The position numbers and the translations under genes are program-made. DNA of 64,000 bases from Actinophytocola sp. (lineage in GTDB: Bacteria > Actinomycetota > Actinomycetes > Mycobacteriales > Pseudonocardiaceae), in assembly GCA_009377395.1 (NCBI GenBank), contig WHUB01000002.1:47231-111230 (forward strand). The letters run 5' to 3'. The notes under the pieces are model-generated. The model saw nothing but the letters and a program-made list of their open reading frames with translations, was not told the DNA's origin and did no database searches. Shown piece by piece: positions 36,348 through 37,235 of the stretch (within the stretch, counting starts at the first letter, position 1; each line of letters begins with the position of its first letter).

Positions 36348-36420
36348 GCGGACGTAGCGCAGCTGGTAGCGCATCACCTTGCCAAGGTGAGGGTCGCGGG
36401 TTCGAGTCCCGTCGTCCGCT
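36348..36420 (+). tRNA. tRNA-Gly (GCC)
   Basis: A complete 73-base cloverleaf is readable. The acceptor stem GCGGACG pairs with CGTCCGC, the anticodon stem CACCT/AGGTG frames the loop TTGCCAA with anticodon GCC (36381-36383), and the T arm is GCGGG-TTCGAGT-CCCGT. CCA is not encoded. A TAGACT hexamer about 30 bases upstream and a small hairpin ACGCCG-AAATCA-CGGCGT (36326-36343) precede it. The discriminator base is shared with the stop codon of the convergent broken hepT gene. Confidence 0.95.
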
Positions 36421-36664
36421 CAGTCCAGCACCGCCCGCGCGGCGGTGATCTCCTCGGCGAGCACCCGGTGCAGTTCAGGCGCGTGCTCATCGACGGCGGC
36501 CCAGACGACGTCGTCATCGACGGTCCAGTATGCGTGCGCGATCCGATTGCGCATCCCTCTGATCAGCGGCCACTCGACGGCCGGATGGGCAGCAAGCCAC
36601 GGTTCGCCGAGTCGTTCAGGGTCGCGTCGACGTAGAGCAGATGCTCCGCCGTCCGCTCGTCCAT
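36420..36664 (-). pseudogene. hepT: Broken HepT (HEPN, DUF86) toxin gene
   Basis: The ATG at 36664 begins MDERTAEHLLYVDATLND, a HepT-like first helix, but this frame stops after 33 codons. In another frame the conserved end of a HEPN toxin follows: ERLGEPWLAAHPAVEW, the catalytic R-x4-H in GMRNRIAHAYW and VDDDVVWAAVDEHAPELH, ending at TGA 36422-36420. The second frame has no start before the active site. Total length is about 81 codons against about 110 for intact HepT, so a segment around helix 2 was deleted with a frameshift. The gene lies directly behind an intact mntA, with one base between. Confidence 0.85.
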
Positions 36665-36665
36665 C

Positions 36666-37205
36666 TCAGGCTGCGATGTCGAGTTGGCGCCGGTGGCGGT
36701 CGACTCGCTGACGGAACAGCTCGTTGGATTCCAGCTCCTTGGTCGTGACCACGTCGACCGAGCAACCGAGCAGGTCGGCCAGCTCCTCGTCCAGACCGAC
36801 GTAGTCGGCGAACGACGCGTCAGGGGTCAGCTCGATCAACAGGTCGAGATCGGAGTCCGGGCGGTCGTCGCCACGAGCGACCGAACCGAAGATCCAGGCG
36901 TGGTCGATCGGATAGCGACCAAGAAGGTGTGCGACTTCGCTGTGGTATCGCTCGAGCAGCTCCGAAGGCCGGATCGCGTTCACCAGCGTCGGTTCGAACT
37001 GGAAGCCCGCGCCACGCAGCAACCGTTCGAGCATGGCGACGGACGGCTGCCGGGCGCCGGACTCGACGTTCGACACGGTGGACTGCGGCACGCCCGCGAC
37101 CTGCGCGAGTTCGCGCTGAGACATCCCGCGACGCAGTCGAGCCTCGCGGACAAGCTCGGCCGCAGTCGAGCTCGAGCTCGATGTCTCGTCACGGGTGCCA
37201 GTCAC
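36666..37205 (-). CDS. mntA: MntA-type nucleotidyltransferase antitoxin with N-terminal XRE domain
   Basis: The 179-residue protein joins an XRE helix-turn-helix (LVREARLRRGMSQRELAQVAGVPQSTVSNVESGARQPSV) to a minimal nucleotidyltransferase domain with the GSVARG...DSDLDLLIEL motif (G107-S108, Asp119, Asp121). In HepT-MntA systems the antitoxin AMPylates a tyrosine of the HEPN toxin. Start is GTG 37205. A perfect 26-base palindrome lies five bases upstream, the likely site for autorepression through the XRE domain. The partner toxin gene is broken, so the protein may survive as a regulator only. Confidence 0.9.
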   Translation of the reverse strand: MTGTRDETSSSSSTAAELVREARLRRGMSQRELAQVAGVPQSTVSNVESGARQPSVAMLERLLRGAGFQFEPTLVNAIRPSELLERYHSEVAHLLGRYPIDHAWIFGSVARGDDRPDSDLDLLIELTPDASFADYVGLDEELADLLGCSVDVVTTKELESNELFRQRVDRHRRQLDIAA

Positions 37206-37209
37206 ACCG

Positions 37210-37235
37210 CCTTGATAGCGGATCCGCTATCAAGG
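37210..37235. promoter_or_regulatory. Perfect 26-bp palindromic operator upstream of mntA
   Basis: The 13-base half-site CCTTGATAGCGGA is followed immediately by its exact complement. It begins five bases from the mntA start codon and lies in the short gap to the msrA stop (37250). Its position suits repression by the XRE domain of MntA. The AT-containing inner part (TATCAAGG on the minus strand) may also hold the -10. Confidence 0.8.

Follow-up and report, generated by a model that had tools for sequence, protein, structure and literature searches.

The locus between tRNA-Gly and msrA in Actinophytocola sp. raises a simple question: why does a complete antitoxin gene with a perfect palindrome in front of it stand beside a broken toxin gene? 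We analyzed this locus within a stretch of 64,000 nucleotides (64 kb; hereafter, the window) and compared it with its relatives. We regard it as probably a laterally acquired type VII-like HepT/MntA toxin-antitoxin (TA) module in decay, the toxin having gone first. The locus includes the following features (coordinates within the window).

36348..36421, plus strand: tRNA-Gly (GCC), converging on the module.
36420..36664, minus strand: hepT remnant, from its start codon to the stop codon overlapping the tRNA end (alignment to intact relatives).
36617..36664, minus strand: HepT residues 1-16 (MDERTAEHLLYVDATL) in the first frame, 15/16 identical to the intact HepT of L026.
36612..36626, minus strand: hepT deletion junction, 106 bp missing in comparison with L026, L023, L024, L063, L028 and L022 (alignment).
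36426..36617, minus strand: HepT residues 52-115 in the second frame, with no in-frame stop (alignment).
36528..36551, minus strand: RNRIAHAY, i.e., RX4HXY, the HepT active site with the AMP-accepting Tyr (sequence; motif definition from PMC7641770).
36666..37205, minus strand: mntA, an XRE/HTH-MNT fusion antitoxin of 179 aa with a GTG start (ORF and profile matches).
37014..37151, minus strand: HTH_3 domain of MntA, aa 19-64 (profile match).
36843..36887, minus strand: GSX10DXD nucleotidyltransferase motif of MntA, aa 107-121 (sequence).
37210..37235, no strand: perfect palindrome of 26 bp, whose 20-bp core (37213-37232) represents the subfamily operator (symmetry and comparison of relatives).
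37212..37217, minus strand: inferred -10 box TATCAA, 6 nt upstream of the start codon (comparison; TANNNT rule from PMC3898074).
37250..37948, minus strand: msrA, the conserved flank on the operator side (annotation and congener comparison).

The locus is a relic of a class I HepT/MntA-type system and holds no working pair, because hepT has suffered a 106-bp deletion and a frameshift. The lesion is directly visible in the alignment to intact relatives as a single internal deletion, with which the helical core loses about 35 residues and the frame is shifted. No full-length toxin is encoded in the window; 12 relatives have full-length pairs. An earlier note on this DNA had called the toxin decayed with its active site still readable, which agrees with the alignment. 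It had also described the N-terminal part as frameshifted and shortened; the frameshift is real, but the damage is in fact one internal deletion after residue 16. The hepT start codon (36664) lies one base past the mntA stop codon, and the remnant's own stop codon (36420-36422, minus strand) shares the last two annotated bases of tRNA-Gly, an overlap that the note had recognized correctly. A 44-aa ORF (36420-36554, minus strand) matches the C-terminal end of the HepT-like family PF01934 (positions 86-118 of 120, E 2e-9) with a score of 37.6 against a cut-off of 23.5, for a fragment only. A similar short word (approximately CGACC) flanks the corresponding stretch in relatives, which makes a short-repeat deletion a plausible cause of the lesion. 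The loss of hepT looks recent, since the second frame is free of stops and the remnant keeps all but 3 of the 33 residues that are invariant elsewhere.

The antitoxin gene is intact, as the note had claimed for both of its domains. The GTG-start ORF is complete, every motif residue is retained, and the XRE/HTH domain comes first, followed by a minimal nucleotidyltransferase domain. A profile search gave matches to HTH_3 (E 2e-15) and to NTP_transf_2/Polbeta (E 5e-12 and 4e-12). MntA scores 46.4 bits against PF01909 (cut-off 21), and its GSX10DXD motif reads GSVARGDDRPDSDLD.

We thus place the module, with its antitoxin fused to an HTH domain, among the remains of an already described type of system. 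Among its closest counterparts is SO_3166/SO_3165 of S. oneidensis, a class I HepT/MntA (HEPN/MNT) type VII TA system (Yao et al. 2020, PMC7641770). There, as here, the MNT gene lies upstream of the HEPN toxin gene, and PF01909 with GSX10DXD is combined with PF01934 with RX4HXY. The window MntA differs from the S. oneidensis class in its N-terminal XRE/HTH domain, its own operator and its length (179 aa vs <150 aa), and its partner toxin has been destroyed. Both components fall below the NCBIfam cut-offs: the window MntA scores 52.5 bits vs 60 for the equivalog MntA_antitoxin (NF047752), and the HepT of the intact relative L026 scores 33 vs 60. The Legionella HEPN-MNT system (PMC11586414) likewise combines a nucleotidyltransferase antitoxin with a HEPN toxin; a term search of that paper returned nothing on a helix-turn-helix, a palindromic operator or an orphan state.

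Relatives were sought at genus, family, order and class level, in two further groups and in plasmids, with MntA as the bait; loci with a toxin but without a trace of mntA would escape such a search. We found 18 distinct subfamily loci with an intact MntA, among which HepT is intact in 12 (L022, L023, L024, L026, L027, L028, L063, L064, L065, L068, L077 and L078) and lost in six. L069 is a more distant thirteenth intact pair and serves as a distant row in the tree. The six toxin losers are directly observed to carry a different lesion each. Besides the window, these are L025, where a deletion leaves a short open hepT frame without the catalytic motif; L029 (genome G335), where the frame is broken after about residue 25; L062, where HepT is cut after residue 45; L067, where it is cut after about residue 30 (the same lesion is found in L079, in two species); and L066, a solitary HTH-MntA on the M. 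avium plasmid pS2b (NZ_CP076860.1, 93338-93871) with no trace of hepT. The hepT break in L029 is followed by what we take, by recognition of the sequence, to be an IS5-type transposase. L066 has a near-perfect operator and lies on a mobilizable plasmid with an FtsK/SpoIIIE-domain gene close by.

On the protein tree the toxin state requires six changes (bootstrap range 5-6; few forks are well supported). A single toxin-less MntA clade (the window, L062, L066 and L067) was considered and dropped, as L077 and L078 of the same group have an intact HepT. In six more loci (L030-L034 and L039) mntA is broken, and none of these has an intact hepT; among the loci recovered by the MntA-anchored search, a broken antitoxin never had an intact toxin next to it.

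The relatives of the window MntA at 60-69% identity occur sporadically, in a few genomes at family, order and class level and on the M. avium plasmid, and an mntA ortholog is absent from three congeners; this distribution fits lateral transfer. A scan of reference genomes gave one match, distant and partial, and a search for viral or phage carriers of the module found none. The further MNT/HepT modules found in the host genome are only distant kin of the window module. In one of them, a second hepT (L017, G000:C244:16833-17111) is interrupted about midway by an in-frame TAG, either real or a base error in the assembly; its partner MNT gene (L005, C244:16532-16747) is open.

The interval between tRNA-Gly and msrA exists in each of the four genomes from this genus and varies among them. 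In three congeners (L047, L048 and L076) an intrinsic terminator stands just past the tRNA gene; its sequence, CTCCCTGA...TCGGGTTCGGGGAG and then a T-rich stretch, was read in all three, and the terminator was scored in two. No terminator was detected in the window between 36250 and 37400, and the hepT remnant begins directly after tRNA-Gly. With the tRNA terminator missing, transcription of tRNA-Gly may continue into hepT and mntA in the antisense direction. In the congener G002 (L046/L076) the same interval holds a frameshifted relic of a Phd/YefM antitoxin; the relic lacks a toxin and is preceded by the imperfect palindrome CCCCAATTTGTCCAATTTGGGG. In G001 and G003 it holds what we presume, from reading the translations, to be an ArsR-like/SRPBCC-like gene together with further genes that differ. 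As to the proposal that the tRNA end is a landing site for mobile DNA, the tRNA-Gly flank does vary among the congeners, but with up to 3 mismatches allowed the window contains the 20-nt tRNA 3' end just once, and no integrase-like gene is found among the adjacent genes, which are msrA, a gene of the FMN-dependent alpha-hydroxy-acid oxidase family and an ECF sigma factor. Att repeats derived from the tRNA were considered and rejected, as the window has none; integrase-type insertion is unsupported because the tRNA 3' end is not repeated.

The palindrome is as perfect as first described: it is symmetric at 26 of 26 positions, only 4 bases (37206-37209) separate it from the GTG, and 0.00 such palindromes are expected in the window by chance. 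With up to 3 mismatches allowed, its central 22 bp occur at a single place in the 4.69-Mb host genome. The exact 18-mer GATAGCGNATCCGCTATC is present in 6 of 392 family genomes, every time adjoining an mntA of this subfamily, and the reversed 18-mer, taken as a control, has no matches in the same genomes. The core of the palindrome is the operator of the HTH-MntA subfamily, to which MntA is predicted to bind. The right arm of the operator is TATCAT in 16 of the 17 other loci (TATCGT in L062), the exception being L029, and in the relatives the start codon follows this -10 box by 6-8 nt; the automatic spacing of 2 in L064 results from a GTG met ahead of the likely ATG, which is also about 7 nt off. 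This arrangement agrees with that of mycobacterial leaderless promoters, which have a TANNNT motif centred 7-12 bp upstream of the start, and 32 of 37 M. tuberculosis TA pairs with a primary start are leaderless (PMC3898074). The double role of the operator arm as a -10 box so close to the start codon implies a putative leaderless, self-repressed mntA promoter. As in an autoregulated TA operon, the operator overlaps the promoter, as judged by comparison, and is conserved among orthologs. In L068 (G999) the symmetry of the operator runs 12 more bp on each side (44 bp in total), past the ATG, which is far longer than in the other loci.

The window box reads TATCAA, 6 nt from the GTG, and its T-to-A change is common only to L029, another toxin loser. 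The change is thus present in two of six toxin losers vs none of 12 intact loci, which is suggestive, not significant. It lengthens the symmetry yet breaks TANNNT, so the perfection of the palindrome is no sign of preserved regulation: the 26-bp palindrome is "more perfect" partly because the conserved last T of the promoter is gone. Three extra base pairs of symmetry are expected by chance in about one of 64 loci. The loss of this T in the inferred -10 box points to decay.

We also compared the branch lengths of mntA at codon positions 1+2 and at position 3. The ratio is 0.67 in L029 and 0.09-0.14 in its intact sisters L027 and L028. The excess of change at positions 1+2 in L029, along with its broken operator, is consistent with relaxed constraint on its mntA after toxin loss; in this sister case antitoxin decay following toxin loss is visible. 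The window mntA has a ratio of 0.28, within the spread of the intact loci (upper values 0.27 and 0.50), and shows no clear relaxation in this test, which is a weak one: the ratios come from printed branch lengths, and third positions are near saturation on the deeper branches. Between L067 and L079 mntA differs by one synonymous change only, which leaves the comparison no power. As the HepT remnant has diverged little, the toxin loss may be too recent for selection on mntA to be visible.

Together these data suggest the following course. In the ancestral state, a leaderless mRNA would start at the mntA start codon and encode the HTH-MntA fusion, then HepT. MntA would bind the 20-bp palindrome with its -10 box and repress its own operon, and the MNT domain would AMPylate the HepT RNase at the Tyr of RX4HXY. 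The module would have been placed between tRNA-Gly and msrA, replacing the tRNA terminator, by a transfer toward this host. Since the 106-bp deletion no full HepT can be made, and, with no toxin left to restrain, mntA would be free to erode; the last T of the -10 box is already A, presumably weakening expression. Decay in the safe order, toxin and then antitoxin, is the simplest account. The lack of clear relaxation in mntA, the kept motif residues and the complete ORF count against decay, as does the assignment of the -10 box by comparison only; continued function of the window antitoxin is possible.

An unlikely alternative to decay is that the solitary HTH-MntA is kept because it is functional, AMPylating and neutralising the HepT of incoming plasmids or sister modules (anti-addiction); toxin loss would then have converted the addiction module to the protective role raised in the note. 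MntA has been kept after toxin loss six times, the MNT motif is intact in the aligned toxin-less members, and a related gene sits on the M. avium plasmid. Orphan antitoxins are common in Klebsiella and have been proposed as anti-addiction modules (PMC7192599); the recurrent antitoxin without a functional linked toxin in K. pneumoniae resembles our case, whereas that study concerns type II and type IV systems, and the antitoxin in the window is enzymatic and type VII-like, with what is left of the toxin gene still next to it. Toxin-first loss, however, is expected even without a benefit, because antitoxin-first loss would be harmful. Moreover, mntA of L029 decays following toxin loss, the conserved T of the -10 box is gone from the window, and the other MNT/HepT modules found in the host are distant relatives only. 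Six independent toxin losses among 18 loci could also mean that the solitary HTH-MntA is a selected state, in which self-regulated AMPylating antitoxins would immunise actinobacteria against plasmid-borne HepT modules, a reading we find more doubtful still.

An artefact of sequencing or assembly, or a minority variant, is a highly improbable source of the hepT break. The host assembly does consist of 622 contigs, with 90.8% completeness and 3.9% contamination, but a clean 106-bp deletion with both sides readable is unlike a base-calling slip, and different hepT lesions occur in other genomes, some of few contigs or one. A sequencing slip is ruled out by the 106 absent bases, and resequencing is very unlikely to restore an intact frame, as this would need about 106 additional bases. 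Least credible is the recruitment of mntA, with its intact HTH domain and perfect operator, to regulate the transcription of other genes: its adjacent downstream gene is the dead toxin and the exact 18-mer is confined to the flank of mntA among the 392 genomes. The operator is unique in the host genome, which speaks against a global role and leaves the note's suggestion of a retained regulator unsupported beyond self-regulation.

Returning to decay, the loci compared provide a small comparative series of the death of a type VII-like enzymatic TA module, in which the toxin goes first, by varied lesions, and the antitoxin and operator later. For the HTH-MntA fusions they supply a conserved operator and an inferred leaderless promoter; we found nothing on either in the two HepT/MntA papers searched. 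The anti-addiction idea can be tested directly with the member on the M. avium plasmid and the chromosomal copies that lack a toxin.
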